Shown piece after piece: positions 14,075 through 58,816 of a stretch of DNA of 64,000 nt (positions are counted from its first letter, which is position 1; each line of letters begins with the position of its first letter). A program made the position numbers and the translations under genes. The stretch spans positions 62,253,725 to 62,317,724 of the forward strand of contig OZ038383.1 of NCBI GenBank assembly GCA_964036045.1. Direction: 5' to 3'. A model generated the notes under the pieces. That model was given only the letters and a program-made list of their open reading frames with translations. It was not told the origin of the DNA and did no database searches. The stretch comes from Eutreptiella sp. 'Long Island Sound 2002' (Eukaryota; Euglenozoa; Euglenophyceae; Eutreptiales; Eutreptiaceae).

Positions 14075-14232
14075 TTGTTGAAGAGCACTTTGGGGCCCCT
14101 GATGATGGAGTCCAAAGGCGTGGGCTGTGACGTGCAGTTGACGGTGGAAGTCAACATGGACGATGCCACATTTGTGGAGCGCAATTTTACGGACCAGGAA
14201 ATTGAGCACTGCCGATCGCAGCCTGACCCACG
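14075..14232 (+). CDS. FAS-alpha-type phosphopantetheinyl transferase domain, first exon
   Basis: This exon encodes the N-terminal half of the 4'-phosphopantetheinyl transferase domain found at the C-terminus of fungal-type FAS alpha. That domain transfers phosphopantetheine from CoA to a Ser of the acyl carrier domain, in the cytosol. Visible marks are KGVGCDVQL, with the Mg-binding Asp expected in G(V/I)xxD, then DDATFVERNFTDQEIEHC and RSQPDPR. The left boundary is set at an AG after TGCGCTGTTTAC, phase 0; it is less certain than the right one. The right boundary is CG|GTGTTG at 14,232/14,233, phase 2. The domain stops mid-block here and continues without loss at 58,507. No ketosynthase exon was recognised upstream, so the rest of the enzyme probably lies beyond the window or behind further large introns. 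Confidence 0.75.
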
Positions 14233-14239
14233 GTGTTGT

Positions 14240-16330
14240 GTGCCTGCCTGCCGGGGTCCAGTTGGGCAGACTTCAGAACCGGGCCAGAGCTATCTGGTGA
14301 ATAGCCTCTGGGGCTGACTGGGTCACCACAGGCACTGGACCATCTGAGTGCTTGCACCAAATTTCTTTTTAGCCGTGCTGAACGGCCAAGTGTTGAGCCA
14401 ACGACTGTGGCCGCTGGCTCGGGTGCTGCGGGTGGCCTGGGATAACGCGAGGCACTCCCCAAGCATTAGCGCCATGTCTGATAGAAAAGTTTTTGAGTGC
14501 AGGGCGGTCACGGGCTTCGCCAATGGTTGTGACATGTGCAATGCATGATTTGCGCCGCGGCTGTTGCTGGCCATAGAGGCCACCTTGGGGTCTTGACTGC
14601 CCAACTCGGTGGCACCTTGGGATCGGGGCCAAGGGCCAAGTCCAGGGGTGCTCTTTGTCTTGCTTGCCGCCCTTTGCCGTCAATGGAGGGAGACGGGGGA
14701 TGTAATATCTTTGCCTTTGCAGCACAAAGAGATCACAACACGCTTAGCACAACACCTGTTAGTGTTCGCGGGACCCTGCCGCGGGATCCTGAATGCTTCC
14801 TTGGTCACGGCCATCCACAGCCGCTCAGGAGACGCCCACCTTTGCCTACAGTTGGGTCGTGGCAGCAGCTAAGGCGCTATGTGCCGCCCTACAAGGGGGG
14901 CAAGAGGGCGTGCCACAAGTAGTATGATGCGCTTAGCGACGTGGCAATGTCACATCCGTTGAATGTACCTGTTGACAAGCTCACACACCACCCGAGTCCC
15001 CTGTCATCCATTTCGGGAAACATCCAATGTTGCACAAGGTCCCTTGCCGTGGATGTGTTAGTAGTGGGGTGCAGTAGACGGCATACATGGAAACGTTCAA
15101 GAGGTGGACCCCAAGCGGGGGGCCAGTGTGACCCAAATCTTGCCCTCCCGTAAAATGTCCTATGTGAGACCCGCGGCGGATCTGTCATTGCCACACATGT
15201 CGCGTTAGTCCCCGTCCTATGCAAAAATTGTGTCTTTCAATGTTCCCCGTGGGGGGGGGGGGTTCCCGGACCATATGTGAAATACCCCATATAATTCCAC
15301 ACTGTTTGACCCGCAATTTCCTTCCGACGACCCATCATGGTTGCCCTTAATTTTTCCCCGGGGCTCGTGTAGGCCTTCCCTACACGGGTGGCCCGTCATG
15401 GGATCCCGTAATTTTACCCGTAGCTCTTGTAGGCTTTACCTTCATCACCCGAAGGCAAAACAATAGGATGCTGCAAGGAATTTGTTGCCTCCTTTTGTGT
15501 TGCACTTGCTTGCTATGGTGCCCCAACCCCTCCAACCCCTGTTTTCCAATTACATTTCTTCACGGTCAGGAAGTGCACTCTTCGGGTCCAATGGGGATGC
15601 CCTTCATTGTGAAATTGAATGTCATGTACACTCGCGTACAATCTTTTTAGTGTTCCGCCCAACTAAATTCTGACATATACACCATGCTGGCCGTGCCCCC
15701 CCCCCCCCCCCGCCCGCAACTCTTTAATGCGGATGACAAAATGTTTGGCTCCTTTTTTTTGTGTTTGGGTGACCACCACCCCACCCCCTCTTCAAAAAAA
15801 GCAGTCCGCGGAGCCCCGGCGGCACGGCGGGCCTCGTGGGATGGTAGGAGGGGAGAGCGACACACGGCTTGATGTGGTCATCCGGGTGCATTGATGATGG
15901 CTGCTTTTTTTGTGCAAAATAAACTGTTTTTCACTGTTTTCATGGCGATGTGCAGTGCTTTGGAGTGTTTTGTGCTCATTTTCCAAGGTTTTAGGGAAAC
16001 AAGCCACTTGGGACCATGCAAATGGGAGTTTGTGCCTAATACATCCGCACTATCTCTGTGTTGCTTCTTTTCGTGCCCCGTTTTATGTTCCACGGTGCCA
16101 CAAGTTTGAGTTGGCACATACTAGCAACTACTTCTTTCTCAAGCCCACCATGCTTAACATGGGACCCGGTGGCGGCACATGCCCTTGGGAGGTGCGGTAC
16201 GAGTAAAGGGCCCCGGAACAGTGGAGGCGCAAGAGTGCTAGGGCACGGGGGCAGTGGTGAGCGGGCTATGGTGGACTTCGAGGAGCTTGCCCCCCCCCCC
16301 CCCCCCCAGAGATACTATTTCATCATGGGG
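14240..16330. other. Intronic sequence, no clear gene
   Basis: Short protein-like stretches occur at 14,609-14,872 on the plus strand (LCRQWRETGDVISLPLQHKE) and 14,889-15,224 on the minus strand, without a recognised family. G or C runs lie at about 15,251-15,261, 15,697-15,711 and 16,291-16,307. A short inverted repeat (CGTGTAGG...CCTACACG) lies at about 15,367-15,390. Confidence 0.35.
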
Positions 16331-16334
16331 TCTG

Positions 16335-16490
16335 TAGTGAAACCAAGTAAAAAAATTTTAGAAAATTTTTTTACCAGATAACAATTTACTAGGTTCACTA
16401 GTTTTTACTAGGGTTTGGGAACCTAACAAAAAAAGTTTTTTTTACTAGATTTCGGAGAACCTAGTGAAAATTTTTTTTTACTAGGTTACT
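16335..16490. mobile_element. AT-rich MITE-like element, copy 1
   Basis: A segment of about 155 bp that opens with AGTGAAACCAAGTAAAAAAA, closes with TTTTTACTAGGTTACTAGG, and has internal TTTACTAGG repeats. The element at 24,436-24,590 has the same length class, the same end motif (GGTGAAAC.TAGTA) and the same AT-rich core. There is no coding capacity. Confidence 0.5.
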
Positions 16491-16492
16491 AG

Positions 16493-16790
16493 GTAGCCAC
16501 CTTACCCACTTGTGGGCCACGTGTGATTCTGCTTCGCGCTCTGAAGCGGTGGGGACCCCCCAAGGCGGCAGGGGTTATGTAGCCACCTTGCCCACTTGTG
16601 GTCCACCTTTGATTCTTCCCCCCGCCCTCAAGCGGTGTATGTAGCCACTTTGCCCACTTGTGGGCCACCTCTGATTCTGCCCCCCGCTCCGAAGCGGCGG
16701 GGACCCCCTAGGCGGCAGGGGTTATGTAGCCACCTTGCCCACTTGTGGGCTACCTTTGATTCTGCTCCCCGCTGTAGGGGGACTCACAAT
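16493..16790. repeat. Tandem repeat, unit about 85 bp
   Basis: Four units start TAGCCACCTTGCCCACTTGT at about 16,494, 16,580, 16,640 and 16,727. They contain GATTCTGC..CCGC.CCGAAGCGG, GGGGACCCCC.AGGCGGCAGG and GGTTATG. The second unit lacks its distal 25 bp and the last is truncated. Confidence 0.8.
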
Positions 16791-17316: not shown

Positions 17317-17342
17317 CCCTAGTGACCTAGATTAAAGTCAAT
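17317..17342 (+). repeat. Left TIR, 26 bp
   Basis: Starts CCCTAGTGACCTAG and ends AAAGTCAAT; exact reverse complement of 22,446-22,471. The inner flank is rich in TTAATTTT and TTAATAT. Confidence 0.95.
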
Positions 17343-17593
17343 GTGTTAATTTTTAATTTTCAATGTATGAAGGCGTTAATATACTAATCTCGCAAATATT
17401 AAGAGGTTAAAGTCAAATTTTTGCGATCGGGCCATTTGTACCCATTTTTCCATGCACATATGCGGACCTATAAGGGGTGTTACGTGGTATATTGTTGCAC
17501 AACGGTATAGTAGAGAGGTTCCAATGTTGTGTTGGTGGGTGTCTTGGACACCCCCCCTCCGGTTGCCCGCACCCCCCCCCCCTCCACACCACC

Positions 17594-19683
17594 ATGTTCC
17601 CTTGTATAGCCCTTGTTATGCCTTTCTCTTGGGAGACCCTTACCGAGCTTAACATGACGCTCGTGCGTTTGAGTGGGGTCAAGAGTTTGCGGGACCCTTT
17701 GGTCTCGCAACTCCTTGGTGAGTGGGTGGCCTCATCCCCTTTGGCCCGGGCCCGATGGTCCGAGGCGATGGAGGTTGGCTACCCCTCCCTTATTGGTACT
17801 AAGCAAGTGGAGGCGGTGAAGCAATATGCCTCCCACCTTTACCCGGCCCCGGACCTCATGGGCCTCCTCATGGACTTGAACGTCCCCAAACTCGGCTTCC
17901 GGCACGTGTCGGAGTACATGAGCCGCCGGGGGTCGGCCTACACGGCCGCAACGGGCCTCCCGTCCCCCCACTCCATCCCCACTCGGGATACCTTCACGGA
18001 CACGTGGAAGGAGTTGGTCACCCCCCTTGACCTACAACCACCCGGGTCCGTCCCCGATCCCCCCGCGAGTGGGCGCTCTTGGCCGCTACCCTCATGGGCC
18101 CCGTACGTCCAATCACGCCCATCGCTAGTGGAGACCATCGATTGGACAAGGCCCCTCACCTTCATTGTGTGTGGGGATGCGTACCCGTGCGCCGGTGGTA
18201 GTTGGACCCAACTCTCCATTGGGCTCCTCAACCACGGCGCACAGGGCCGCACACCCGCGTACTTGTGGGTGATAGGGATGGCCGTATGCGGGGACAAGGA
18301 CATGGCGGCACTTGCAACGATATGGGCCGACAACTTGACGGTTTGTGGCCCATTCGTTGTTTGTTAATTTTTGTGTTTTTGCGTTGATTTCTCGAGATTA
18401 ATATCTTGTTTTCGGTTAATATTAACGCCGACTGAAAAATTAACTTAATATTAATCTCGAGAAATTAATGTAAATATTAATCCATGTCCTTTTTGTAGGT
18501 ATTGCAGTCCATACAAGACTGCGAGAAGTTTCATTGGGTGTCGCGCTGGGTGCCAAGCAGGTTGGTCATCGGGGGAGACCAACCGTTTGTGCGGCGCCTT
18601 ATCGGTGTGTCCACCTCGCCCATGGTGGGCTCCATTTACAATATGGGGGTGTGGGACAAGGTTGCGACGGCATCGGTCAGCGTGGAGACCCGGCGCACCT
18701 TGGACCGTGAGGAGGCGGCCCGCCGCCGCTACAAGGAGACCGGCCGTAGCTTGGAGAATGGGGGATGCATAGGGGATCCACACATTGTGGTTGACCGGTG
18801 CATGGTTTTCCTATGCATCCTCCATTGTTGCATGGCCATTGGCCGGCTCCAAGTGGCGTTCATCGAGACACGCCTTGTGGACCTCCCCAAGGAGAACACC
18901 GACGCCGTGCAACGGGTCCTCTACCGGGCCCGCACGGGTGTGAAGTTGGGTGCGACGGGGGCACCCAACGGGGAGGAGGCCCGTGCGTTGTTCCTCGCGT
19001 GGGAGGAACTTGGTCCTTTGTTGGACTACGTCCCGGTGGATGGCGAATGGCAAGCCGTCGTGGCCATGCGTGACCTCCTCCGGGAATTGTACACGGACAA
19101 GCCGCCCCGCGGGGACCTACGTGCGGCCGAGGTGGCACTCGCCTACCGTGCACATTGTTGCAAGGAGGCGTGTCAATCAAACTACCTCCTCTATTTGGAG
19201 GAGGATGTCACCGAGGCCGTGGCCAATGCACGCCGCTTGGGGGTTGGGTTGGGTGCCGTGTGCGCGGATGTCGTTGAGAGCCTCAACACCATCCTTAAGC
19301 GCGCATACAATGACCACTCGGGCCGGGGGGGGGGGGGGGGGATGCCGGGGGCAACCCAAGTAGAGCGGGAGGGGGAGGTAGTTTCACAAGTGTGGGAGTG
19401 GTGGTTTTTAAAATTTGACCTTCCGCTACGCAATTACGGGACCCCCCATACCGCCCCATGCACTATGGCCAAACTCATGGCAACCCATGGCCCCCCTCCC
19501 TCCACCCTTGCTTCCCCACCACTAGCTTTGTTTTCTCCTTGCCATGGACGCCTCGGCCATGCAAAAGATGTTGGCCGACATGTTCAAAGCGAACAACGAA
19601 GCCCCGGTGTGTTTTGCTTGTGCATGCTTGCTTGCGTATACGAATTAATATTTCTGTCGCTTCGTTTAATATTTCGAGTTTAA
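17594..19683 (+). CDS. Transposase candidate, two exons, superfamily not recognised
   Basis: Exon 1 is 17,594-18,340 (249 codons) and exon 2 is 18,499-19,683 (394 codons and stop); the intron is GT-AG, phase 0. A second in-frame ATG lies at 17,618. Candidate catalytic acids, by spacing and hydrophobic context, are Asp195 in TFIVCGDAYPCAGGSW, Asp276 in SRLVIGGDQPFVRRLIG and Glu509 in ADVVESLNTILKRAYNDHSG. The D-D-E order, the long D-to-E insert with a Cys-rich middle (CMVFLCILHCC, about 350-360), and a WEWWFLKFDLP block after the Glu fit an RNase-H-fold transposase. A run of 14 G (19,326-19,339) encodes Gly just after the Glu block and is a frameshift-prone site. The last ~45 residues, which overlap the start of the next gene, may not be real. 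The gene lies 277 bp inside the left TIR. The DDE assignment is inference from pattern. Confidence 0.6.
18341..18498 (+). other. Intron 1 of the transposase gene, hairpin-forming
   Basis: Donor ACG|GTTTGT, acceptor TTTTTGTAG|GTATTG, 158 bp. It contains an exact 15-nt inverted repeat, TTTCTCGAGATTAAT at 18,388-18,402 and its complement at 18,450-18,464, within TTAATATT-rich sequence. The fold would bring the splice sites closer together. Confidence 0.7.
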
Positions 19684-22044
19684 TATTAATAGGCGCGGTC
19701 ATTAATATTTAATATATTAATTAATTTTTTGATAGATTATATTAATTTCAAGAAATTAAGTCGGGGGCACAAAAATTAAATTTTTTTTAAATTTTTGTTT
19801 TCATCCTCTTGCTCTTTTAGATGGCACAAGTGGAGCAACGACTGGCTGCAGCTCATTCAGCAGCAGCAGCAGCTCCAGCACCAGCACCAGCACCAGCACA
19901 AGCACCTCCTCCTCCCGCCGCTCAACCGCCAACCGAGTCAAGCCAAGACTCCTCGGATAGGCGGAGGAAGGAGAAGAAGGAGAAGAAGAAGAAGAAAAAG
20001 AAGGAGAAAAGGGAGAGGAGAGAGAGGGAGAGGAGCCAGGGGCAGGGGGGGGGGGGTAGAGGCCAGCGTGGGGGGGGGGTCAAGGATGAGGGGGAGGGGG
20101 AAGTGGTGGTGGACAAGGGGGACGGGGACGGGGAAGTTCAGGTTGTTGACCCCCCCAATGACCCCCCCCCCCCCTCCCCCAGTGGCTTCTCAAAGCCCTG
20201 GGCCCCCAATCTGCCACCGCCCGAAAGGCGGGGCCGATCCCCTGGTCAGCCCAGGTTCTGCAGGAGGGGTGCGCGGGGGATCAACCCGTTTTTTCCTCCC
20301 CCCCCCCATGGCCACATGATGGTCATGTGGATTTTTCGGCGGTTGATCCGGTGTATTTGCCGGAACGAGGGGAAACACGAAGGCACCTGGGGTAAGGATG
20401 TCTCCAGGGGGGGGGTCTGGGTCTTGAAACCCCTCCCTGGTGCCCCTCTTGCCCCCATGCCAGAGGCAATCCGTGTGGGCGCCTTGCCCGCACTGAATTT
20501 GCTTTTCGACCCCCGCGGCGTATGTTTTGGGACGCCTCATTACCTGGTGCTGCTGCAGCACTGGGCCCAGCTGGGCTGGGTCAGGCATTGGCGCCAGGGC
20601 AAGGCTGTGGCTTTTGGGGTGGACTGGGCCACTGTGCTCGCCCTACCCCGCCCCATCTACGACCCGGGGTGCCAGCCCTCGCACGAGGGCTTGGTCCCCC
20701 AGTCCCGCGCCGTCAAGTCGGCGACCACGGCCGCGACCGCGGCCAAACCGGGGGCCCAGGCGGCCCCGATGGCCAGCGCGGAACCCCTGTGGCCCCTGTG
20801 GAGGCCCCCAGTGCCGCCGCGCTCTTCTGGGAGGCCATGGGGGCAGTTCAGGCAGGCGGAGTGAACGGGAGTTTTGAGGTATGTGTTTTGCGTGCGTGCA
20901 TTAATTTTTAGGATGCCACGTTTAATTTTTCGAGATTAATATTTAATTTTTGCGCCGCCGGTCGCAATATTAAAAGTTAAGACTTAATATTGGAGTTGAA
21001 AAATTAAAAATGTCGCCGAAAAAATGAATATTTTTTTTTCATTGTTTTTCCAGGTTATTGACGTCGTGGTCAACGCGACGAATGCCAAACCCATCCGGGT
21101 GGCTTGGCGAGACACCGAAGGATCCCAGGAAGTACCCCTGGGGTCCCTCCACCGCATCGTGGCCCGAGACCCACCCTTGGGCCTTGCTCTCTTGCGAGGT
21201 CTCCACGATTGGGAGACTTCGCGCTTGGTGAGCGGCGTATGGGTGGCGCCGCGCCACCTCCGGCCCGCGGAGTGGGCTCGGATGCAGGAGGTGTGGTACG
21301 CGGGGGGGGGGGGGGGATGAGGAGATGTGGGGGAGCATGGGTGGGGGCGGGGTGAGCGAGGGGGAGGAGGGGGGGGGGAGGCGTCCACCACCACCTCCCC
21401 AAACCCCCCCCCCCCCCCAAGCGAAGCCCAACCCCCCCCAACCCGCCCCCAAGAAACGAAAGTTTTCTTTCGAGTCGGCCGACGAAAGCGACGACGGGGC
21501 GATCCCCCGGCCCAAAAGGGCGAACTGCCCCCCCACCACCACCACCGCACGGCCCCGCCGTCCCCGCCCCCAAACCCACCGACCCCCCACGAGACCGCCA
21601 CCACAAACCCCCCCCCCCCCCACCAAGACCGACACCCCCAAGGGTGCTAAGAAGAAGGACGACCGTCCCGAGGATACGATCATCGGGACGGTCGTCCACG
21701 TACCCTACCCCAAAGGGGTAGAGAAGGGCACCGTCCGTGGTATCCACGGGCGGAAGTACGGTGCCGTTTGGGTGGAATACCCGGGCGGCACCACCCTCTA
21801 TGAGGTGAACCGCTCCCTCCTCTTCCCCAGCCCCGAGGAGGCCGAGCGGCACCGCGAAGAGGCCCAAAAGAAAGAGGGCCAAAAGAAGACCAAACCCCCC
21901 ACCCCCACAAACGAAGAGTCTAACCCCCCGAACGCAAACCCTACCACCGAACCCACTAACCCACCTAACCCCACTAACCGCGCTAACCCCCCATCCGGAC
22001 CCGCAAAGATGCGGGACCCCAGTACGGGGTCCCACGAGGTATGA
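19544..22044 (+). CDS. Accessory transposon protein, three exons, basic and Pro-rich with a barrel-like domain
   Basis: Exon 1 (19,544-19,606) reads MDASAMQKMLADMFKANNEA. Introns 19,607-19,820 and 20,879-21,053 are GT-AG, phase 0, and TTAATATT-rich. Exon 2 (from 19,821) has an Ala/Pro stretch, a long Lys/Arg/Glu run (KKKKKKKEKRERRERER), Gly/Pro runs and a Trp-rich part (VLLQHWAQLGWVRHWRQG). Exon 3 (from 21,054) reads VIDVVVNATNAKPIRVAW, then a Ser/Asp patch (KFSFESADESDDG) and a small beta-rich unit near 21,680-21,850 (GTVVHVPYPKGVEKGTVRG, AVWVEYPGGTTLYEVNRS), which I read as Tudor/SH3-like. Two frame changes are needed: one near 20,780-20,800, and one at the 14-G run (21,301-21,314). Both could be errors, decay or slippage. 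The deletion derivative retains the exon-3 part. Role unknown; a DNA- or chromatin-binding partner of the transposase is plausible. Confidence 0.55.
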
Positions 22045-22445
22045 GGGCCCGGACAGGGACCCAAGGGGCCACAATGGCCATGGACAAGAGACAGAAACAC
22101 ACACATGATGCATTCCATGTTGCGTTGTGCCATTGTTAGGAGGGTTAATATTTGGGGAAATGAGTTAATATTTGTGAGATTAACATTAATGCCGGCGACC
22201 CTTTAATTTTCAACTTTTCAAATATTACTGGAAAAATTAAAAACAAAAATTAAAGCCAAGAGCCATTTTGACTTTTTGAAACAACCACATGGGTAGAACC
22301 CCCCCACCAACCCCCGGGGCAAAATGACACCCAAGCCCGTAAGGCAACCCGTGGGGGTCATAATTTTCATGGCAAACCCCCTAACCCCCCCTAAAAAATT
22401 GAAACTTGAGATTAACGTGTTAATTTTTGGCCAAATATTAAACGT
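22045..22445 (+). other. 3' untranslated and subterminal region of the transposon
   Basis: Non-coding. It holds TTAATATT.GGGGAA.TGAGT repeats, AAAATTAAAAACAAAAATTAAAG and CCCCCCTAA repeats. The deletion derivative preserves it closely at 45,200-45,600. Confidence 0.7.
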
Positions 22446-22471
22446 ATTGACTTTAATCTAGGTCACTAGGG
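22446..22471 (-). repeat. Right TIR, 26 bp
   Basis: ATTGACTTTAATCTAGG...ACTAGGG; exact complement of the left TIR. Confidence 0.95.
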
Positions 22472-23817: not shown

Positions 23818-23829
23818 ATTTGTGTTCGG

Positions 23830-29893: not shown

Positions 29894-30249
29894 TATGCAC
29901 AACGGACATCACATCATAGTGCATCAACATTCACACATGGTCCCAAGAAGTCCCTTGGACGAGGTGAATTGTAGGGTTCCCACTATGGCTCCTTGTATCA
30001 ATTGTGACATGTCACATTTCACTTCCCCGCCCCCACCCAACGCCACCCACAAATTAGAATCGTTCCTAGAGGAGGACTATGGCATGAGGGGTGAGGGGGC
30101 TTTCCTTGGGTAGGAGGGGGTGGCACATGTCCCAAATCGCTTTGCTTCTTATGTCCAAATCCCTACCCATTTCCCACAGGATTTAGCGAAAATACCCGGG
30201 TATATGCACCGGGATTCGAAACCATCGCCGCCAAAATGCTTAGGATAAA

Positions 30250-40147: not shown

Positions 40148-40150
40148 ACT

Positions 40151-44428: not shown

Positions 44429-45626
44429 CCCCGTTGACCTAGATTAAAGTCAATATGGAGGGTGGGCTCGGATGCAGGAGGTGGGGTATGCGGGTGGGGG
44501 GATGAGGGGATGTGGGGGTGCATGGGAGGGGGTGGGGTGAGCGACAGGGAGGAGGGGGGGGAGGGAGGGGGCGTCCACCACCACTCGCCCGAACCCCCCC
44601 CCCCCCCCGCTCAAGCCAAGCTGCAACCCAACCCCCCCCAACCCCCCGCCAAGAAGCGAAAGTTTTCCTTCGAGTCGTCCGACGAGAGTGACGACGGCGC
44701 GATCCCCTGGGGCAAAAAGCCCAAACCCCCCTCTCCCCACCCCACCCCGCACGGCCTACAAAGGCTGTCCCCGCCCCCAAACCCGCCAACCCCCCCAAGA
44801 CCGCCCCCCCCCCCCCCGCGACCAAGACCGACACCCCCAAGACGGACGACCGTCCCACCGATCCGATCGTCGGGACGGTCGCCCGCGTCCCCTACCCCAC
44901 TGGGGTAGAGAAGGGCACCGTCCGCGGTGTCCCTGGGCGGAAGTACATACCCGGGCGGCACCACCCTCGACGAGGTGTCCCCCTCCTTCCTCTTCCCCAC
45001 TCTCGAGGAGGCCGAGCGGTACCGGGAAGAGGCGCGGGCGGGCAAGAAAAAGCTCAAACCCCCCGCCACCACAAACGAAGAGTCTAACCCCCGGAACGCG
45101 AACCCTACCAACGAAACCACTAACCCCACTAACCCCACTAAGCCCCCCTCCGGACCCGCGAAGATGTGGGACCCCACCACGGGGTCCCATGAGGTATGAG
45201 GGCCAGGATAGGGACCCAATGGGCCACACTGGCCATGGACAACATACATGAACGCACACACAATGCCTTACATGTTGCGTTGTTCCATTGTTAGGAGGGT
45301 TAATATTTGGGGAATTGAGTCAATATTTGTGAGATTAACATTAATGTTGGCGACTCTTTGATTTTAAAATTTTCAAATGTTAATCCAAAAATTGAAAACA
45401 AAAATTAAAGCCGAGAGCCATTTTGACATTTTGAAACAACCACATGCGTAGGACCCCCCCACCAATGCCCAGGGGAAAATGACACCCAAGCCCGTAAGGC
45501 AACCCATGGGGGTCATAATTTTAACGGCAAACCCCCTAACCCCCCCTTAAAAATCCAAACTTGAGATTAACGTGTTAATTTTCGGCCAGATATTAACTAA
45601 ATTGCGTTCAATCTAGGCCACTAGGG
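44429..45626 (+). mobile_element. Internal-deletion derivative of the 5.15-kb transposon, 1,198 bp
   Basis: The left TIR (44,429-44,454) differs from that of the full copy at three of 26 positions and the right TIR (45,601-45,626) at four. The left TIR joins almost directly to sequence matching 21,272 onward (GTGGGCTCGGATGCAGGAG), so about 3.9 kb that includes the whole transposase is gone. The exon-3 part of the accessory gene remains (KKRKFSFESSDESDDGA, GTVARVPYPTGVEKGTVRG), with a short deletion after GRKY that breaks its frame. The 3' untranslated region is retained. No clear target duplication is visible. Confidence 0.85.
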
Positions 45627-45639
45627 GCTGGACGCCCCC

Positions 45640-47579: not shown

Positions 47580-50038
47580 TTTTGCACGCTCAGTAGTCCT
47601 GAATCGGACATCCAACGCATCGCAGCACGCATGAACATACCACTCGGCAAACCGGTGAACATTACCGTCCCATACCTCACACCATCACAGCGCGCACCTG
47701 TAGCACAAGTCATCATCAAAATTTTGCGCTCCACGACCTTTTCAGCCCTCGAAAGGAAAACAGTGCGCACCCAGATACGAGTTGTCTCCTCCAGCCCCCT
47801 CAATGTACGTCGTGCATTTGAGTGACATGTCAACAAAGCAGGCCGGATGACCGATTGCCCCCCATGCTTTTGCAACCACACGCACTTACACACATGGCAA
47901 CAAGGAGGGGACGTATGTGTCGTGAACGGACACTATGCATTGCTTCCAATTAACGTCCAACATTACTTAGCCCCCCTCTGTGCATCCGACCCCCTCCCCT
48001 GTGCCGGGACACGCTCTCGCCAAGTTACTTTACAGGCACTTGCGCAGCTTGCACAAATAGGGCATGCGGGCCGAGCCTACACACATCAGTCGATAGGAGC
48101 CCTCGTGCCGCAGGACCAATGGGACGAGGACAGGCTCCTCCGACAACGGGTATGTACTGTTGCACAGGCCTTAAGCTCTGTTGCATACATCCGAATTGCA
48201 GACAAAAGTTCTGCCATGCTGTTTGGCTTCTGTCACCAGTGGGTCTGGGACTCCACGATTGAGTTCTTATCCAATGAGGGATACACACACCAACCACTCA
48301 CACACGCACAGCGCATCCACAAGTCCCTGAAACATATTGTAAAAAAAAAACAGTTGGCCTGCAAATCCGTCATCCGTCCTACCTCTGTTATATCTCATAG
48401 GCAAGGCCAAGTGATGGGTGGGTGAAATGCAGTATATTATGGCGTCCCATAGCTGCTGTCATTGAACCCTAATTCAGCGCTTTTACTTACGCATGGCAGC
48501 ACGCGCATTCCCATTGCTCCTCAAAACTCTCATTTCCGAAATACCAGACTGTTTCTTGGTCCTCCGTATCAGCGATATGACTGATTGGTTTCATGGCCTC
48601 TGTGAATGGGATTGCCAGTGCATTGCAGAAGCAGACTGCTCAGGACAGTTTAACAATATAAAGCCTCAGGACGTCATGACATCCCTCTCCGAGGCAGTCA
48701 CTTGGCTTCAAAAAACACGCCGCTGGTCCGCAGCAGGCATGGTATGGAGCATCCACCGCGACAACAGAAATTTGGACAGGGCAGGCAAGGGTGCATCAGA
48801 CCGATTTTCCACATGGCACACACGGACCTCGAAAACCTGGTTTACTTTTCTCCAATGACAGACACTTCTACACAAGTGTCCGGTCGAGTGTGGGACAGGC
48901 AAGGAGCAATTACCATGGGCGGCCCTTTCAGTGCGGCGGCCCTTTCGTTGCGCAGGCCGCGGACCTCCGCTCAATATGGGGTGTAAAGCAGCGAGTCGAC
49001 CTCATGCGCCGCTTGGGGAGGCTCCAATTCACCGAAAGAGGACACCCGCTATGGCTCACTCCCACAGGAAATACGCTCTCACTATCACAGTTTCGGGACA
49101 ACGTGATGGTGGCAGCACGCGGACCCACAGCCAAATCCACCGTGAAAAGCGTCAAGGACACATGCACAGAAATCTGGGACCTACCAGTCCTATGCCCATG
49201 CAGCACAGACACCGTACACACCTGCATCGAAAAATGTATCACCACCAGCGTCACTGCCATGGGCATCACTGTGCACATACACAACACACACCCACCACTC
49301 ATATACACACAGCCATCTAGTCTCACGAACACTTGGTGCCTCAAGTACTCGGTCACATTGCAAAGCCCATGGGCCCGAGACTATAAACACATTGCCAGCA
49401 TCATTGTCAGCGCTGTCCTCAACGTCCAACCATTTTTGCAATCTTGGCTGGGAATTATAATCAGCATCACAGCGTGGTGCCAGATCTCACTACTCTCAGA
49501 CTACCCACGGTCGGCCGTCCTGCGCGCGCTGCACTCCGCTGTGCCCCGCATTGTAAGCCGTATACCATGGGACGTTGAAGCCACGCAGGCCTATACAGTG
49601 CATATTTTATACCCTCTCCCATTAACACGTGATACTATTTTATATCGGCTGCGTAAGTGGCTACAGGGTCACAATTTATGGTCCAATTCAGCCTATGCGT
49701 CATGGCATGTACCACACGCAGGACCATGCAGCGAGACATGCGCTGATTGGTGCTATGAATTTCCTATAGTATCGCCACACACGCCCCGCACAGATCCTTC
49801 ACAACCCACTCCAGTGGCGCCACCGGCCCGGGGGGAGGGGACTCTGCATTTCCGTTACTGCCATTCCACACATGAACTCTTGATGATATATGGCAGATCC
49901 AGGGGCCAATGCTTAGCGAGAGCATCAGGTGCATACCGCTGCATAGCCCCTGCTTACTTGTCGGTGTCCCACCCACAGGTTGTCTTCGCGTTGCACTCTT
50001 TGCGACAGAAAGGTACCTATGGTCTTTCAAGCCACTGA
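47580..50038 (+). pseudogene. Decayed reverse transcriptase of a protist-type retroelement
   Basis: The blocks, in order, are an N-terminal part (47,847-48,425; a Cys/His stretch PPCFCNHTHLHTW, then DKSSAMLFGFCHQWVWDS), an RT motif-A-like AEADCSGQFNNI with Asp codon at 48,634, a motif-B-like QGAITMGGPFSAAAL near 48,904-48,945, and a motif-C-like SLSQFRDNVMVAA with the Asp codon at 49,097 (RDN where most RTs have xDD). They lie in four successive reading states, so at least three frameshifts separate them. The last frame runs to 50,038 with a Trp/His/Cys-rich tail (HAGPCSETCADWCYEF). The RT call rests on the order and spacing of A, B and C. The resemblance to RTs of dinoflagellate-type elements is from memory. 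Confidence 0.5.
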
Positions 50039-50039
50039 C

Positions 50040-50464
50040 GAGCCATTTTCTTCCTGCGCTTTTGTGTTGATCGCCTCTTGTGCGCACGTGCATAAGCATA
50101 GGCTTCCCCCGGGGGAGGGGGGGCCTAGCTCAACCTTTAACTTCGGGACCACCTGTCCCTTCTAACCTGCACGGCTGTTAATTGTACATTTTTATATACG
50201 AATATATGTACATGCAAGTACTGCCTGCACCCCCCCCCCCCGGCATGGGCAGTTTGAACGACATTTCGGGTACCCCCCACACACACTTTGCGAAATTTTC
50301 TTCAGCACGGTCTGTATCGTAGTTCCTCTCTCTTGTGCCAGTCCTTCTTTTACACTGCCGAGGGGACACGGAGGCCCCATGGAGACCATAATTAGGCAGT
50401 CGCCTGTCACTAGTAATGGTCCTATATATAGCACCTATGGCAACAGTTCCTATCCAGTTGCCGT
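50040..50464. other. 3' flank of the RT remnant, no gene
   Basis: C-rich, then AT-rich with TATATACGAATATATGTACA near 50,193-50,212 and a C run at about 50,230-50,240. Confidence 0.35.
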
Positions 50465-51401
50465 CTATTGCACTTGGTGTGCCAAAGGTAGCAAGGCAAC
50501 CAGCACGGTTGCACATGCAGACCCAACACACGGTGTCACCGGGGGATTCTGCCTTCCAATTGTGGCAGCCCGCCATGAGCACCTGTGCTTTCCCGTCTGC
50601 ACACAGATACACAGGGACTGCCTATCGTTCCCTTCCGTATCTTTAAAACTTACGGTTGCGGCCTTGCGCAGCTCATCATCAAAATTGATTCCTTGGGAGG
50701 CCGCGTAGAGGGTCTCCCACTTTTCACTGCCCCCCAGTAGCCACCAACTAGATAGTTGGTTGTGGCTCGCGGTGACACCAAGCGTGCAATGGACGTACGA
50801 GGCCTCATGCCTTGATGTACCATCCAGTGCGATAGGCAACCAATGCAGCCGTCGGTCCCCGGGCTGCATGATGTCCGAGGGTGGGGGTGGTCGACACTTG
50901 TACAAGTGGCCGATGCGGTCAGGTTGATAGCAGGCCGCACCATGGATGGCCGTGTCGTCTCCTGGCAGTGAACGGGCGGGACTCGGGTAATGCTAGCTGC
51001 CGAAGCATGCCGTACACCTGGTCCCATACCACACCGTACGTCATGCTCCCCACTAGGTACCGCGCCTCTGTCCTAGAGAGGTGCAACGACTGGATCCGCC
51101 AAACGGCCATAGTCAACCTCTCCTCCATGGTGGGCTCAGGCGGGACGGCCAGTACAACTCTTGTTTCCGGAGTAAGCACTATTGGCCCGATGTCGGGGAG
51201 GTACTTGACGGTGTAGGGTGCTGCAAGCTCCTTGGTAACAACTTGCTGGAGCTCTTGTAGGCGCCTCCGTCGCATACGTTCGGCTACCAAATGGAATGGC
51301 TCCTTGGACGGAGCTCCATCACCACGCGGCATCGTGTTTGGTACAAAGCCTGTGAAATTGGGGAGACTTTTATCGGAGGTTTCTACCATCTCCATGCCCA
51401 A
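50465..51401 (-). pseudogene. Minus-strand gene of the 10.4-kb interval, unrecognised
   Basis: It starts MGMEMVETSDKSLPNFTGFV, then a basic helix (FHLVAERMRRRRLQELQQVV), YTVKYLPDIGPIVLTPETRV and an Arg/Tyr-rich part (LSRTEARYLVGSMTYGVVWD). A stop near 50,919 and a frame change separate it from a second block (50,465-50,905) that reads MQPGDRRLHWLPIALDGTSR and WWLLGGSEKWETLYAASQGI. The start codon lies directly beside palindrome cluster 3, divergent from the plus-strand gene at 51,820. No family is recognised. Confidence 0.5.
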
Positions 51402-51414
51402 GGTGACTAAATTT

Positions 51415-51630
51415 GGTGAGATTCACGTGAAATTCGTACCAAATTCGTACGAATTCGGTACGAATTTCACGGGAATGAATGTGTGTGAATACTGAAGATT
51501 CTGTGAAATTCGCACGAAATTCGTACGAATTTCGTGCGAATTTCACGTGAATGAATGTGTATGAATACTGAAGATTCTGTGAAATTCGCATGAAATTCGT
51601 ACGAATTTCGCGGGAATCTGAGCGAATTTT
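51415..51630. promoter_or_regulatory. Palindrome cluster 3 between divergent genes
   Basis: Three tandem units of about 85 bp, each with a palindrome centred on ATTCGTACGAAT, linked by GAATGAATGTGT.TGAATACTGAAGATTCT. The middle one (51,503-51,546) is a perfect 44-nt palindrome with outer arms GTGAAATTCGCACG/CGTGCGAATTTCAC. Its position between diverging start codons suggests a shared control or replication site. That role is inference. Confidence 0.65.
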
Positions 51631-51819
51631 TTCAAAAAAAAACTTGACCCATCCTTTTGCCCTCGTTGGCCCTCACAAAGCAAGCACAGGCTCAAGCTTA
51701 GGGGTTACCGCACACCCGGTCCAATGTTTACTTGTTTTATTTTTTCGGCCGACACTCTTGTGTGGCATAAACGGGACACGGGACCTAGTTGTACAATTGA
51801 CAGGTAAGGCACCGGCCAC

Positions 51820-52557
51820 TATGGCACGCACCATGCTCCAACTAGTTCTAGATGAGGCACGGCTTGCAGCACGAACTTGCACCCGTGCCTCATTAAACAA
51901 TGACAAGGCAAGCAGCAAGGGGAAGGTAAGGATGGAGTGTGCTGCTGCCATCCATTTCATGCGAAACAGGGGTTGGTGGAAGGTAATAGATGCTTGCCTA
52001 CAACACCCCAGTGTGAGGCAGCATCAAGTAGGAGGAAAAAGTTGGGAGTTGGTGTGCAAAACATGGTGGGAGAATTTTGCAAGCATGTGTGTATTCGCTT
52101 GGCGTTCCGCATGGTTTCCGGGGCCAACTTGGGGCGGCTCCGGAACCCTAGCATATCCATGGGCACTGCCCACAATGAGCTCCAGTGGGGCGGACTTCTG
52201 TGGACGCATCTTTGGATGGACGACATGTATTATTTTTCAAAGAAGTGGAGAATCTTCTCAAAGTTCTCCTGCTTTGCCATGGAGGCAAGTCACCGCAGGC
52301 TGAAGCGCATGTTGCGCAATATCGGGGGCCTAAGCCTCCTCCAAGGGAGACTAGGGGTGCAAGTGGTTGTGGACAAACGCACCATGGATGATAGCCTCCG
52401 GTCGCATGGGTGGGATGCGACCAAAAGGGCACAAAATGGGCAAGGGCCCATAAGTGTACAAACGTATGCAAGCCGTACAAGAAGACGGCTTCTAACCGAC
52501 ATGCAGCACCTTCAGACTCTGCAGCGGCGGTTCCGGTGTCGCAAGAAACGGGCATGA
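51820..52557 (+). pseudogene. Transposase-like gene of the 10.4-kb interval, one frameshift
   Basis: The first block (from about 51,820) reads MARTMLQLVLDEARLAARTC and RGWWKVIDACLQHPSVRQHQ. Near 52,040 the frame changes and continues NMVGEFCKHVCIRLAFRMVS, HLWMDDMYYFSKKWRIFSKF, CFAMEASHRRLKRMLRNIGG and a basic end (TYASRTRRRLLTDMQHLQTL, RRFRCRKKRA). The H.W.D.MY and F.ME..HRRLKRML segments look like the last catalytic region (E) and helix of a DDE transposase. The upstream D motifs are not identified, so the class is open. Confidence 0.45.
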
Positions 52558-52664
52558 GATCACAACATGAACCCAGACCATTGTTGCCTGTGGCCAGGGT
52601 GCATGCAGGGATGCATTGGAGAGCGTACCTTGGGTGTTAGGACAAATCAGGGGGTGCACACCGG

Positions 52665-52760
52665 TAACATTTGTGTAAAATCCCGTGAATTCACGTGAAA
52701 TTCGTACGAAATTCGTGCGGATTTTGGACGAACTCACGTGAATTCACTCCGGTGAATACG
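52665..52760. promoter_or_regulatory. Palindrome cluster 4, right subterminal
   Basis: GTGAATTCAC, GTGAAATTCGTACGAAATTC and ACTCACGTGAATTCACT follow the transposase-like gene. A further ATTCACGTGAATATTCACG lies at 52,945-52,964, next to the right end. Confidence 0.55.
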
Positions 52761-52991
52761 CTACAGGCTTGCCGGATTTTGGCACCTCTCGTTTGGGGCG
52801 CGGCTTGGGCATGGTGGATGCTTTTGGGGCGGGACCTTCACTGGATGATGCGTAATGAAGCTGGGGTAAGAATTTTACCCCCTCAAAACCCTCAAGGGAA
52901 CCAAAGATATGGCGTTTCCTCCCGAAAACCTCGAAATTTGGGTCGATTCACGTGAATATTCACGCCCCATTGGAACGGCCACTTATCCCCC

Positions 52992-53009
52992 GTTCACGAA
53001 GGGTACATA
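52992..53009 (-). repeat. Right 18-bp inverted end
   Basis: GTTCACGAAGGGTACATA; exact complement of 42,614-42,631. Confidence 0.8.
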
Positions 53010-53860
53010 CTAACCCCTCCCGCCTCCTTGTTGCCACCCTCGTCGTGCCCCTTATTCCCCTTGCTGTCCCCATTTTCTTCTTTGTCATCCCCATTGATTT
53101 CCACCCCGATTGCCTCCTAGGGCTTTACGGCCGCCTCTTTGTTTTTGAAGACGACCCCCCCCCTCCCCGCACGGTGTGCCCCCGCCACATCTATCTTTCG
53201 CGTTCCCCTCCTCCCCTTGTTCAATGTTCGCCCCGTCCCCGCATTCGCTTTGGACCCTGCAGACACCACGTCCCAATCCACCGGGTTCCACCTCATCATC
53301 CCAATCCCCGCACCAATGTGCACCTACTCAATGTTCCTCCACCCCCCCCCCCCCATCCCACGGCACACACCGCACCATCCCCGGCTCCAGTATCTCCCCA
53401 TGGGGGTCCCCACCCCTTTGCTCCAATGGGGGGGGGCAAACGGCACGGCCTTGCATAGTGGCCTCCTTGTGTATTGCACTCCATTTACGCCCCGAATCCT
53501 CATCTACCCCTTCCCCCAACAACAACGCCATGCGTCATACAACGGTTCAGGCTTCTTTAAATGTCCCCACGAAATTTGGCCTACCTCAACAGCGAATTTT
53601 TTTCTAACATAGCATTTGCATTGTCCTCAAGGCTCAAAGGATGCCATGACGCGGTGCTGTTAGCAGAGTAGCAGCGGACGCCCTCTGCCTTGGTAGCGCA
53701 CTAGGGGCGTTAGGGATCTTGGACCGAGGTACCATAGAGGGCCCCCAGGAGGACCCAAGTTTTCGCGAAGGCTTTGTATTTTGCCGTGCCGTCTTATTGT
53801 CGATCGTCCTAGCAATTTCTGGCCATGCCTCATAAGACTTTGCCGTCCCTTCCCCATGCT
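53010..53860. other. C-rich flank, no gene supported
   Basis: Pro/Ser-coding open frames in a CCCC/TCCC-rich background with C runs at about 53,155-53,163 and 53,341-53,353. No domain. Confidence 0.35.
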
Positions 53861-54125
53861 ATGTGCTAATCCCACAAAGACTCCACCTCATCTTGCTGTT
53901 AGCGAGGAAGACCTGCAGGTCGTGATAGGCGGAGAGTTCAACTATTTTGGTGTTGTGGTAAACCAACTCTCCTGGCAAGCGGCCAAGGCTCAGGTCAAGT
54001 GCAGGATGCACAAGACAATCTAGGCACATAGCAAGCGTAAGATGGGTGCCATACTGCACCCGGCAACATGCAATGCCATAAGTGTAGGTTCAAAATTTTG
54101 TTGGCAAAGGAGCAGGGTATGACTA
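53860..54125 (+). pseudogene. Possible LINE RT thumb fragment
   Basis: The plus frame reads HLAVSEEDLQVVIGGEFNYF, then GVVVNQLSWQAAKAQVKCRM. The EFNYFGVVV core resembles the F.YLG.. motif that follows the palm domain of non-LTR reverse transcriptases. One in-frame stop follows. No other RT block is seen next to it, so this is a small relic at best. Confidence 0.35.
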
Positions 54126-55475
54126 CTAATTTTTCACACGATGCTAGCCTATTGGGAGGCGTCAGAGAGCAAGAGACGACCGGCACGCCTCACAATGCGC
54201 GTCACGGCACAGAACATATTAAGTTAAAGTGAAATTCTTTATGGTTGCAATGCTCAGTTGATTTTGTTGTCCACACAGCAACACTGCACCACACACACCA
54301 ACAAGCATGCATGGCAATGCAATCAATGGAATGGCATCTTTGTGGCTTCATGTTTTGTTCTAGTATTCTTCTAGTCTAGCCTAGAACGGTCCAAGCTACA
54401 AGTTCTAGCCTAGAACAATATTGGGTGTCCTAGCGTGCACCAAGCACAAGCGAGCAACTCCCGTACCAGCCCCAAATCCCATATGTGAGGAAGTACATGA
54501 CGAGGACCAAAAAGTGATCCACCGCGCCATACATCTTAGAGTGCCGGCTGATGGTGTTGGCATCCCTCTACAACTCTCGGAAGCAGGGGTGGCATTTCAC
54601 AAGGAGGCCCACCCCAACAGCTGGGTGTGTGGTTGGCATAAACATCTCCCAATACATGATGCGCCCTACGAAACACCCCTTCGTACTACCCACCTCCCGC
54701 AGCCACACTAACTCCGGGCACTGCAAATCCCACAGAAAGACCCCTAGCACTTGGATCCTGGGTTTAAAAAAGTCCTTTATTAAAAAGGAGTCGATGATTT
54801 AAAACACCTCAGCTACATTCGAAGCTTTGGTATCATGGCGAAGAATGACCTCAAGCACGCGATTGCAAGGAAGTGTGGAAAATGTCCCCAAGTGATGTCC
54901 TACTGCAGCAACGCTTTTGAGTAGCTCCTCACGAGCCAGAAAAATAGCGACAATACCACTCAATGAATGCAATGCTTCCGTGCATCACTAGTATGTACAA
55001 TTCGAATCACATTCTCATATATGTGGACATCTCGAATAATGTACAAATGTGCGGCAATGGTGCACAAACAGCACCACCAGAATAGTGTATTTAGTGATGC
55101 TCAGGTTGACAATTGTTTTCCACTCATGAAACCCACCTCCACCACCACCCCTTGCGCCATCCGCAACCGTGGAGGATCCCTCCATATTGTGCAAGGCACT
55201 GTGGGAGTTGAGCAGGTCTAGTAGCCTTAGCGATGATCGGGTTGGCTACTGCCTTGCCAAGCGGGCTCTATCATGCCCAGTAGCATAGCAGCAACTCAAC
55301 ATCACCACCAAGGACCTCGAGGCCGGCACCTCCTCCTTAGATATGGGGAAGGCATGCAAGGCTGCAATTGAGGCATATGCTGCCTCCTTTGCCCCCCATC
55401 CCCCACCCACCTCCACGCGTGAGATGAAGTGCTCAACTTGGCGCTCCCTAGTCTTCATGGAGCACCCTCTCGGAG
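54126..55475. other. GTTCTAG-rich stretch and unrecognised debris
   Basis: Around 54,355-54,440 TTCTAG motifs cluster (TTCTAGTCTAGCCTAGAACG, AGTTCTAGCCTAGAACAATA), then GGGTGTCCTAGCGTGCACCA, which resembles the TIR zone of the 2.8-kb element. A minus-strand frame at 54,568-54,750 (LGVFLWDLQCPELVWLREVG) is protein-like. Other frames are weak. Confidence 0.35.
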
Positions 55476-55718
55476 TTGTACACACTGCGCACGTTGGAGT
55501 ACCACCACACCATTCTTGGTGGGCCCATACGCCCTTTCTCTTTTACCGAGCAGGCCTTCCAAGCTTGGTGGAAGGAGTTGATCAGCCGCATGGAATTGGA
55601 TGGCCCCGTTGCGATGGTGTTGCCAATGGCCACAAGGATCTCATGGTCCTCTACCTCTTGGGTCAACTACATCCTTTCCCACCCAGGATTGGTGCGGGAG
55701 ACCAACCTCCCTTCCTGA
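55476..55718 (+). pseudogene. Unrecognised protein fragment
   Basis: The plus frame reads LEYHHTILGGPIRPFSFTEQ, then AFQAWWKELISRMELDG, and is more protein-like than its neighbours. The opposite strand is also open (55,448-55,666; SNSMRLINSFHQAWKAC). No family. GTTCTAG-type motifs return at 55,935-56,030. Confidence 0.25.
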
Positions 55719-56085
55719 TGACATTCATGGTCCACCGGAGTGCCTACCCCATGGTTGGGGTCAACCGGACCCATCCCACCATTTCATTGGCCAACTTTCC
55801 CTGCGTGGCCTGCTCCCCAGCGGGGCTCTTGGTGTTGAGCATGCTCAACTAGTATATTAAGGCCATGGAGGCACTCAGGACGCTATGGAAGGATATCTTG
55901 CAATTCTTCTTTCCACATAATGTCCGCGAGCTCCAAAATTTTCGTTGTAGTTTCGTTCTAGCTAGCACCGGCCGACATTCGGTGAAACACCATTGGAACA
56001 TCTAGGCTAGAATCACACTAGAACACATCAGTTGTGGCGTAGCTTATTCAAGAGATGATCGATGCACGCGCGGTCCAATGAGGGG

Positions 56086-56576
56086 CTAGCACGTAGGAGG
56101 CCAAGGTGATGCTTGGGGGGGCACCAACCTTGGACAAGAAGGGTCATTTGTGTGTCCACATGCCCTCATGTTTGCGCCATGTTCAACGTTCAACAAGGGG
56201 ATATGGAATCCACAAGAGGGTTTGGGAGGGCAAGGGTCATCCGTGGGCCATGAATCATCTGTGAGCGCGATGAAGCGCGCTACACAGCCTTCCTCCTCGA
56301 GGCGCCTTCTTTGCATTTGCAAGTTCTTTTCTACCCCGAGGCTGACAACCCAAAACCGACCCCGCTCTTGGATTTGTAGAACACATGTTTGGCGTATTCC
56401 CCTCCGACATGGTGCACCAGGATGTTGGTGGACCAATGTTGAAGGATACTGGGCATGCGGAAGTCTCCCGTTTGGACAGAGATGTGCTGCAGACCCATAT
56501 GTGCCCCCGGTAGATGCCCCCTGACCGGGACCATCTGCCCCAAACCCGCCAACCCGCCGGCGTCGGTGAAACACAC
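56086..56576 (-). pseudogene. Unrecognised minus-strand gene fragment, frameshifted
   Basis: A first frame (from 56,576) reads HISVQTGDFRMPSILQHWST and YAKHVFYKSKSGVGFG. Near 56,335 a second frame takes over (EKNLQMQRRRLEEEGCVARF, CGFHIPLLNVEHGANMRACG). Both look protein-like and lie in order, so one frameshifted gene is likely. No family is recognised. Confidence 0.4.
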
Positions 56577-56599
56577 GCTCCACTAGCCCTGAGGACTGC

Positions 56600-57290
56600 G
56601 TGGGCTCACTGCACCTAGGGCCTCGTGCAAAAGATGTGTGTGTGCCTCCACCTTTGGCCTTGGCTATTCACTTGTATCTAGTGTGACGGTGCCCGACAAG
56701 GACCCCCCCCCCCGACAGTCAGAACGAGTAGTGGTGAGAGGCCAATAGGCACTGCCAAAGGCAAACAACCTAATACCGAGGCCTTGCCCCCCCCCCCCCC
56801 CTTGGGCTACTATCGGGGCCCTGCAGGGCTCTAGGTTGGAGCCCCCTTGGGCGCGGGTAGGTTGTGCTAGGCCGCGACTAGGATCGGGGATGGGGAGTAA
56901 GCCCTTGGTGCCTCCGTGGCCCCTAGAGCCCAGCAGTCGAAGAGCGGGAACGGTCGATCTTGCTAGTGCAATGAGCTTGCAGGGGGCACTCCCAAGGCCG
57001 ACTGGTGGGGATCCCACTGTGGAACCCAGCCCGCTTGTATGGGGTTCGGGTTGGAAACCTCGGCTTGGTGCCCGCAACACTCCCGGATAGTCCTGTTGTG
57101 GTACATGGAAGTGGGTTTGGGGTTGGGGTCCCACAGCAGCCACTCTTGCGTATGTCCGGTCTTCCTCTATGGGGATTGCCATTGGCCCTCCCTCTGGTTT
57201 CCCTCTAGGGAGCGGTGAGAGGACGACTTCTAACCTGGTGAACATCTAGGACTTGTGCGATGGTCTTGCCCCCCCCCCCCCCCCGAGGCT
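56600..57290. other. No clear gene
   Basis: C runs at about 56,702-56,712 and 56,788-56,802. Open frames on both strands lack any domain. Confidence 0.3.
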
Positions 57291-57299
57291 CGCCCCCCG

Positions 57300-57412
57300 G
57301 GCCGCTGCCACTCACGTGCCGGAGACCGGGAAGGGGATTGGCGCTCCTTCCCGGGTCGCTGTCACTCACGTGGGGGAGACCAGGAAGGGGATTGGCGTTG
57401 CTTCCGGCTCCC
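57300..57412. repeat. Two-unit tandem repeat, about 60 bp each
   Basis: GCTGCCACTCACGTGCCGGA and GCTGTCACTCACGTGGGGGA begin two copies that both continue GACC.GGAAGGGGATTGGCG.T.CTTCC. Confidence 0.8.
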
Positions 57413-57522
57413 CTCCCCCTCCGAAGAATGCATGTTGTCTGCCGAGGGATCCCAAAGACCCACCACAATATCTCCTCCCCGGATCTTGCTACGATCCCCG
57501 TCCTTTGCTTGGTGTAGTCCCC

Positions 57523-57762
57523 CTAGAGCTTCCCTCCGGTCAATGGCTGGGTGCGCGCCTTCTCCGCATGGTACATAAATTGCCTGTCATTGGGGCCTAT
57601 CTTGGCCTTGGAGAGCATGCCATCCACTTTCGGGCGGGCTCCCACCATGGCCCATCCCCCTTTCTTGGTATGGCAAAGTTGTCCTTTGAGGATGTAGGAC
57701 ATTTGGCCTTCGCCGAAAGCCTCCTGAAGGGCAATATTGTGGCGTTCTACCACAAGGGGCAT
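57523..57762 (-). pseudogene. Unrecognised minus-strand fragment
   Basis: The minus frame reads HNIALQEAFGEGQMSYILKG, then KVDGMLSKAKIGPNDRQFMY. Protein-like, no family, no neighbours that extend it. The plus strand here is open too (57,253-57,930). Confidence 0.3.
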
Positions 57763-57929
57763 GATGGGCTTCCCTCTGTCTGTTTCCTAGTAGCACCACA
57801 ACGCAATCAAGGCAAGGGCAGCAGCAAAGGTGGAGGCCAGCCACAGCGCCACTCGTCCACATCAACAAGGTCCCCGCAGAGGAACAGTTGGCTGCAGCCC
57901 ACTCCATCTCTTCCTGACCTCGCAGGCTG

Positions 57930-58506
57930 ATCTAACGGCGGGTTTCCTGCTAAGTAACCTGCAGCACAAGTACTCAGCCCTAGCTAGGCTACTCAAGGAG
58001 CAACCAGGGATCAATTCGCTCTCGGAGCGCTACCCGACAAGCCTGCCGGACACCTGAATTGCGGAGTTGGTGTCCCAATCTGACCCCTCAGATCTCCGGA
58101 AAGGGATGGTTTTGCCGCAGGAGGCTTGATTTGCCCATCTCCTCCTCCTCCTCCTCCTTCTCACAGCAGAGCACAGCACAGCATGGCACCAGACAACACA
58201 CAACACAGCACAGGACAGCTCAACGGATAGCCCGCAACACAGCACACAGGGCAGAACAGAACCCAGTGCACTTCACGGCACATTGCAGCACACTACCGCT
58301 GTGACAGAGCCTCCACTGTGGCAGATGAAGCGACGAAGGCCTCGTCCTTCTCCCTTGATGCCTTGGTTTCCCCTCTCCTATGCCGACCTCCGCTGCTGCC
58401 TGTCTCAATCCTGCCTTTATCGCACACTGCTCCCATGGCCTCTCCTCTGCTGCCCTGCTGAACAACGCCAATGCTGCCCTGCTGTGCTGTCGCAACGCCT
58501 CCACAG
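57930..58506. other. 3' end of the giant intron
   Basis: Contains a (CTC)n/(CCT)n stretch at 58,138-58,160 and a CAGCACA-rich stretch. The last 60 bases are CTGCC-repeat-like (GCTGCCCTGCTG twice) and end CGCAACGCCTCCACAG. No coding sequence is needed between the two FAS exons. Confidence 0.45.
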
Positions 58507-58816
58507 ATCCAGTTTTGCTGGCCGCTGGTGTGCCAAAGAAGCGGTCATCAAGGCCATCAGCAACTATGCGCCAGACCTGCCTCACTTATGGCATGGCGGT
58601 GGCGGATCCTTGAAGCAAATTGAGGTCACCCCCTCTCCCTCCCGGGCCCCGCGGGTCACTTTGCTGGGCGCCGTCAAGGCCCAGGCGGAGAAGGTGGGCG
58701 TCACGGAATGCAAGCTGTCCATCTCTCACTCCGGGGCTTACGCCATGGCTGTGGCTGTAGCAAATGGCCCTGTGGCCAATGGCCCCTTGACGAATGGTGG
58801 CTTGTTTAGCCACTGA
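58507..58816 (+). CDS. FAS-alpha-type phosphopantetheinyl transferase domain, last exon
   Basis: The exon completes the split Arg codon and encodes SSFAGRWCAKEAVIKAIS, with the catalytic Glu of the (W)xxKEAxxK motif. It continues GGGGSLKQIEVTPSPSRAP, VTLLGAVKAQAEKVGVTECK and LSISHSGAYAMAVAVA, with the SxSHs motif near the end. About 20 more residues (NGPVANGPLTNG) precede the TGA at 58,814-58,816. All three signature blocks of the domain (Asp, KE, SHS) are present across the two exons. Compared with the fungal pattern there is an insert of about eight residues (YAPDLPHL) before GGGGSLK. The stop marks the end of the protein, as expected for the last domain of a FAS alpha chain. Confidence 0.8.

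Follow-up and report, generated by a model that had tools for sequence, protein, structure and literature searches.

We conclude, at a probability of roughly 85%, that the window (the whole 64,000-nucleotide stretch of DNA analysed here, C6:62253725–62317724, where C6, of 146.9 Mb, is contig OZ038383.1) contains the 3′-terminal part of a cytosolic fatty acid synthase I (FAS I) gene of the fungal type, with fused beta and alpha parts and with conventional, cis-spliced GT-AG introns of 44,274 and 142,683 bp. The initial annotation had proposed one FAS-type domain split by a 44,274-bp GT-AG intron, and this is supported as the best reading. Its single giant intron, on the other hand, proved too modest: the 44-kb intron stands, a second one of 142,683 bp lies upstream of it, and the gene covers at least 361 kb. 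The sequence examined comprised the window plus 200 kb upstream (264 kb), and the genome searched comprised 2.28 Gb in 2,205 contigs.

The ACPS exons and their junction

The following parts of the gene fall within the window.

1–14,074, + strand: 3′ end of the preceding intron, ending ...TTTACAG (upstream exon at C6:62124759–62125115)
14,075–14,232, + strand: exon coding for the N-terminal half of the phosphopantetheinyl transferase (ACPS) domain (LLKSTLGPL...SQPDP-CG); profile match of 41.4 bits
14,233–58,506, + strand: intron of 44,274 bp, donor ACG/GTGTTG, acceptor CCACAG/ATC, no N; GT-AG ends in frame
58,507–58,816, + strand: final exon, coding for the C-terminal half of ACPS and closed by the stop codon TGA (58,814–58,816); profile match of 90 bits

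On re-reading, the exon coordinates, strand, order, GT and AG ends and split arginine codon were all as first claimed. The exon at 58,507–58,816 begins A-SSFAGRW, and its A completes the CG left by the preceding exon to give Arg. When the proposed comparison of the translated exons with FAS alpha was run, the joined 155 residues matched Pfam ACPS (58.9 bits; cut-off 25). Furthermore, the alignment to yeast FAS alpha (PDB 2was, 2uv8) was gap-free through the junction, and the junction point was ungapped in 11 of the 12 aligned relatives, the other (P0052) having a one-residue insertion. These results agree with the claim that no residue is missing at the join, and an exon overlooked within the 44 kb was rejected because the junction is ungapped. 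Six GT and two AG splice options lie within 30 nt, and two of their 12 pairings keep the frame; 14233/58507 alone preserves SSFAG, the other in-frame pair losing two residues.

The GVGCD and WCAKEA motifs are both intact, and the gene has the arrangement of a fungal-type FAS I alpha, in which the C-terminus after KS is an ACPS bearing the D and KEA motifs. A second complete copy of the domain, raised as a concern in the initial annotation, was not found: a search of the 2.28 Gb, in which 58 of 58 candidates were scored, located each half at one place (E 1.5e-63 and 1.2e-27), and the next-best match, an ACPS on a different contig, was 38% identical (E 3.5e-8). Among the ten single frames or proteins compared with Pfam, the joined ACPS was the sole match. 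Nothing in Pfam rose above the cut-off in three + frames of 1–14,102 and of 47.5–53 kb, in one + frame of 50,002–64,000 and of 37.5–39.7 kb, or in three + and two − frames of 30.5–35.5 kb. An Rfam and ARAGORN scan of the whole window gave 0 matches.

Upstream exons and the extent of the gene

With the C-terminal part of yeast FAS2 as the query, four further exons emerged upstream, correctly ordered and on the strand of the two window exons. A profile built from 69 FAS alpha relatives (those longer than 560 aa among 120 fetched) was run on the 9,483 open frames of at least 12 aa on both strands of the 264 kb. It gave six matches of 41–132 bits, all on the + strand and in order, the seventh scoring 4.9 bits. 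From the upstream side, the exons measure 192, 283, 200, 357, 158 and 310 nt, and the introns between them 1,036, 1,371, 450, 142,683 and 44,274 bp. The last exon is measured to its stop codon; the count for the first begins two bases ahead of where it probably starts, which leaves its initial residue uncertain. All five introns, including the 44-kb one, have GT...AG ends and keep the reading frame, as conventional (U2-type) introns do, and joining the six exons gives an uninterrupted reading frame (499 aa) that shares ~52% identity over 97% with FAS alpha proteins of fungi.

The intron that enters the window from upstream (C6:62125116–62267798; 142,683 bp, of which 128.6 kb lies beyond the window start) is three times the length of the 44,274-bp intron. 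For its donor we took GAG/GTCCCC, since this matches the phase of the acceptor ahead of 14,075 and yields a linker as long as that of yeast, with 34 residues between the conserved Phe and GVG. This donor is not certain, because GTCCCC is a poor donor and linker length differs among relatives. The true donor may be another site in this open frame, whose end, at 71,637 of the 264-kb stretch, is 246 bases further on; such a donor would alter the intron length by less than 0.3%. An exon missing from within the 143 kb is disfavoured: the 69-relative profile found no FAS exon above noise there on either strand, and the linker equals that of yeast, although linkers vary.

How far upstream does the gene reach? 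PF18325 (two tandem ACPs, C6:61953121–61954304) and PF18314 (C6:61954383–61955027) were each found at no other locus in the genome, so that both FAS-alpha-specific families were found only on the same contig and strand as the six exons, and on their upstream side. The upstream loci match fused beta-alpha relatives (P0141, 4,193 aa, residues 2043–2925), and their exons cross the beta-alpha border region. Introns among these loci are roughly 0.3–0.5 kb, judged by the gaps between matches; the gene has five to seven short introns of 0.3–1.4 kb. It runs at least from C6:61951623 to 62312540, a span of at least 361 kb. The sequence read leaves out C6:61955805–62043724 (87.9 kb) of this span, and no exon was assigned to the last part of KR or to the N-terminal half of KS. 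Because no FAS exon was recognisable across the 77.5 kb before the first KS exon (67.5 kb plus a further 10 kb searched), there is probably a third very long intron ahead of the KS exons, barring missed very small exons. The gene would have at least two, and probably three, giant introns. The FAS alpha on C6 is the only one found in the genome.

Repeats within the 44-kb intron

The initial annotation described the intron as built largely of mobile elements, arrays and foldbacks. Repeat-rich it is, but a composition mostly of transposons was not borne out. Matches to the remainder of the 264 kb make up 23.8% of the 44 kb, matches to itself 24.2%, inverted matches to itself 5.0%, and tandem arrays 17.5%, these fractions overlapping one another. 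Tandem arrays account for 12.3% of the 143-kb intron and for 18.3% of the 67.5 kb that precedes the KS exons. The main repeats, listed without strand, are as follows.

17,317–22,471: element of 5,155 bp with perfect inverted ends (CCCTAGTGACCTAGATTAAAGTC...), likely a DNA transposon, from its copies and ends
25,651–27,629: 72-bp tandem arrays in two rows, 25,651–26,388 and 27,452–27,629
28,802–29,894: CATCA 5-bp tandem array, ~219 copies
36,159–37,366: palindromic tandem arrays of 62–71 bp, the source of 21 of the 22 long inverted repeats
39,701–42,234: 71-bp array, then a 10-bp (TGGGGACCTA) array with ~208 copies
44,429–45,630: piece related to one end of the 5,155-bp element, 80–82% identical, from the repeat comparison

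The window copy of the 5,155-bp element has perfect 23-nt inverted ends, both exact. Three more copies, at 90–95% identity, lie in the 143-kb intron, and there is a likely 2-bp target duplication at three of the four. A Pfam search for a transposase in three + frames of 17.4–20.9 kb gave nothing above the cut-off and two sub-threshold matches (E 0.43 and 0.64). Foldbacks throughout the intron are less well supported: of 22 inverted-repeat pairs of at least 60 nt, all 70–81% complementary, 21 lie within one palindromic tandem array at 36.2–37.2 kb. Consequently, the difficulty of splicing across many long inverted repeats had been overstated, and this concern is weaker.

Could the tandem arrays and near-identical repeats that fill these introns have been misjoined or collapsed in the assembly, making the introns look far longer than they are or giving a false arrangement of the exons on one molecule? 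We consider this improbable. The order, strand and frame of the six exons hold through two long introns, the strand is shared by the ACP and FAS_I_H parts further upstream, and neither ACPS half has a further copy. In addition, there is no scaffold gap in the 264 kb or the next 10 kb upstream, since N is absent throughout both.

Under the preferred reading of a fused FAS I gene with cis-spliced giant introns, the whole gene would be transcribed as a single pre-mRNA of at least 361 kb, from which conventional cis-splicing would remove the 44,274-bp and 142,683-bp introns. Both would have been enlarged as mobile elements inserted and tandem arrays expanded, while the exons and neighbouring short introns stayed small. 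The intact transposon-like element in the 44 kb, with its copies in the 143 kb, favours this reading. The ACPS domain at the C-terminus would come from the last two exons; judging by its yeast counterpart, it may attach phosphopantetheine to the ACP of the same enzyme.

Host and splice signals

The 44-kb intron had been judged very long for a unicellular or fungus-like gene. It is indeed very long, but the host is a photosynthetic euglenid and not fungus-like, because an uninterrupted PPT gene (L004, contig C8) matches transcript proteins of Eutreptiella gymnastica (Euglenida, Eutreptiales). From this one gene, we take the genome to belong to E. gymnastica or a species very close to it. Its best two protein matches are Eutreptiella transcript proteins with TAXON_ID 73025 (E. 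gymnastica). The top one is a doubled protein whose copies match at 95% (224/236) and 93% (235/253), both with long stretches at 100%. EG_transcript_16237, which we take to be from Euglena gracilis, is 50% identical to the PPT gene. A cytosolic FAS I is present in E. gracilis, according to the excerpted text of PMC6630311.

An E. gracilis intron survey, as excerpted (PMC11170887), gives GTGTG as the donor consensus of GT-AG introns and describes a C-rich tract in them. The donor of the 44-kb intron (GTGTTG) is close to this E. gracilis consensus, and that of the 143-kb intron (GTCCCC) fits it poorly. No clear C-rich tract is seen in the present introns, and pyrimidine content before both acceptors is ordinary, being equalled or exceeded at 16.9% and 27.5% of the 3,224 AGs in the window. 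Euglenid nonconventional introns carry CCAGG at +3 to +7 and CCTG at −9 to −6 (excerpted text of PMC11170887); this class was rejected for the 44-kb intron, which has GTTGT and CCTC at those sites, plus GT-AG ends.

Could the parts be transcribed separately and then be trans-spliced, or be kept as two proteins? Euglenids add a leader to many mRNAs by trans-splicing, and the distances between the exons are extreme. The known euglenid case, however, adds a leader exon only, whereas both sides here are collinear, on one strand and with cis-type donors. Two separate proteins would fare no better, since the ACPS domain is cut in mid-fold and neither half would function alone. Separate transcription is therefore very unlikely in either form. 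A dead gene, broken by insertions and with its splicing lost, is likewise very unlikely: no same-species FAS transcript protein was found among candidates of 275–873 aa and 1,650–5,250 aa, but the six exons are open with GT-AG ends, the GVGCD and WCAKEA motifs are preserved, and this is the sole FAS alpha found in the genome.

Implications and comparison with known systems

For a one-celled organism, introns this large would be remarkable. Should the 44-kb and 143-kb introns of this unicellular euglenid prove real, long-intron splicing would need no multicellular host, and both the pairing of splice sites over 100 kb in such a cell and the use, within a cell cycle, of a gene so slow to transcribe would become testable. 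A bolder reading, to which we give slightly less than even odds, is that, in a unicellular alga, a single RNA is made from a housekeeping gene spanning at least 361 kb and several introns of 40–140 kb are spliced out of it, in a cell where nonconventional, structured introns and the trans-splicing of leaders occur as well. Giant introns would then be common in phototrophic euglenids, missed because the drafts are fragmented, and long-intron splicing would have arisen there too.

No report of euglenid introns of tens of kb, or of a Eutreptiella nuclear genome, was among the best matches listed from the open-licence literature. The word "intron" is absent from the examined part of the text of the chromosome-level E. 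gracilis genome paper (PMC11252322), and a diplonemid study states, in its excerpted text, that its own assemblies may miss long introns (PMC12621601). Intron-length caps in gene finders would split such genes into false short ones.

The giant, transposon-filled introns of animals and plants are tens to hundreds of kb long, repeat-rich and bounded by GT-AG, in multicellular hosts. The present introns are alike in size, repeats and GT-AG ends, but the host is a single-celled alga. The conventional GT-AG introns of E. gracilis share the GT...AG ends, the near-GTGTG donor (that of the 44-kb intron) and a euglenid host. Their lengths, in the excerpted survey (n = 11,527; PMC11170887), average 512.5 bp and reach at most 8,197 bp, on a draft genome that its authors call incomplete and fragmented, in contrast to the 44,274 and 142,683 bp found here. 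Nonconventional euglenid introns belong to the same lineage and differ in their paired CCAGG/CCTG motifs, of which the 44-kb intron has none. The dinoflagellate Prorocentrum cordatum, as described in the excerpted text of PMC10666404, is similar in its large protist genome and repeat-driven intron growth, and differs in its mean intron length of 4,709 bp and its mixed GT/GC/GA donors. Finally, the fused beta-alpha FAS I proteins of chytrids, oomycetes and others (P0121–P0168) have the same order of ACP, FAS_I_H, KS and ACPS, whereas the present gene spreads these parts over at least 361 kb.

The 143-kb intron of the fungal-type FAS gene holds two open frames that resemble each other and are probably repeat copies, as well as three copies of the 5.1-kb element, a likely DNA transposon:

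Window 4,934-5,314, + strand, open frame
Window 8,897-9,277, + strand, open frame
C6:62144218-62167135 (C6, contig OZ038383.1), 5.1-kb element, three places

The three copies of the element are spaced by ~8.9 kb. Two of the three have the same left flank, as though one copy had been duplicated along with its surroundings. Across the 264-kb region (the window plus 200 kb upstream), runs of at least 10 C or G occur at ~5-6 per 10 kb.

Farther upstream, at C6:61951621-61955804 (search loci L044 and L045), the same FAS gene has two tandem ACP domains and a long exon without interruption; introns in this stretch are short, and the next FAS exon found lies 166 kb downstream.

Elsewhere in the genome, a separate ACPS (81 bits) with an uninterrupted frame was matched on a contig other than that of the FAS gene (C52:41582-41950; L001, L031), and this may represent contamination or an enzyme of organellar type. 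Three similar PPT-family matches, with open frames of 353-375 aa, all lie on contig C24 at 15.2-18.1 Mb (L005, L006, L008).
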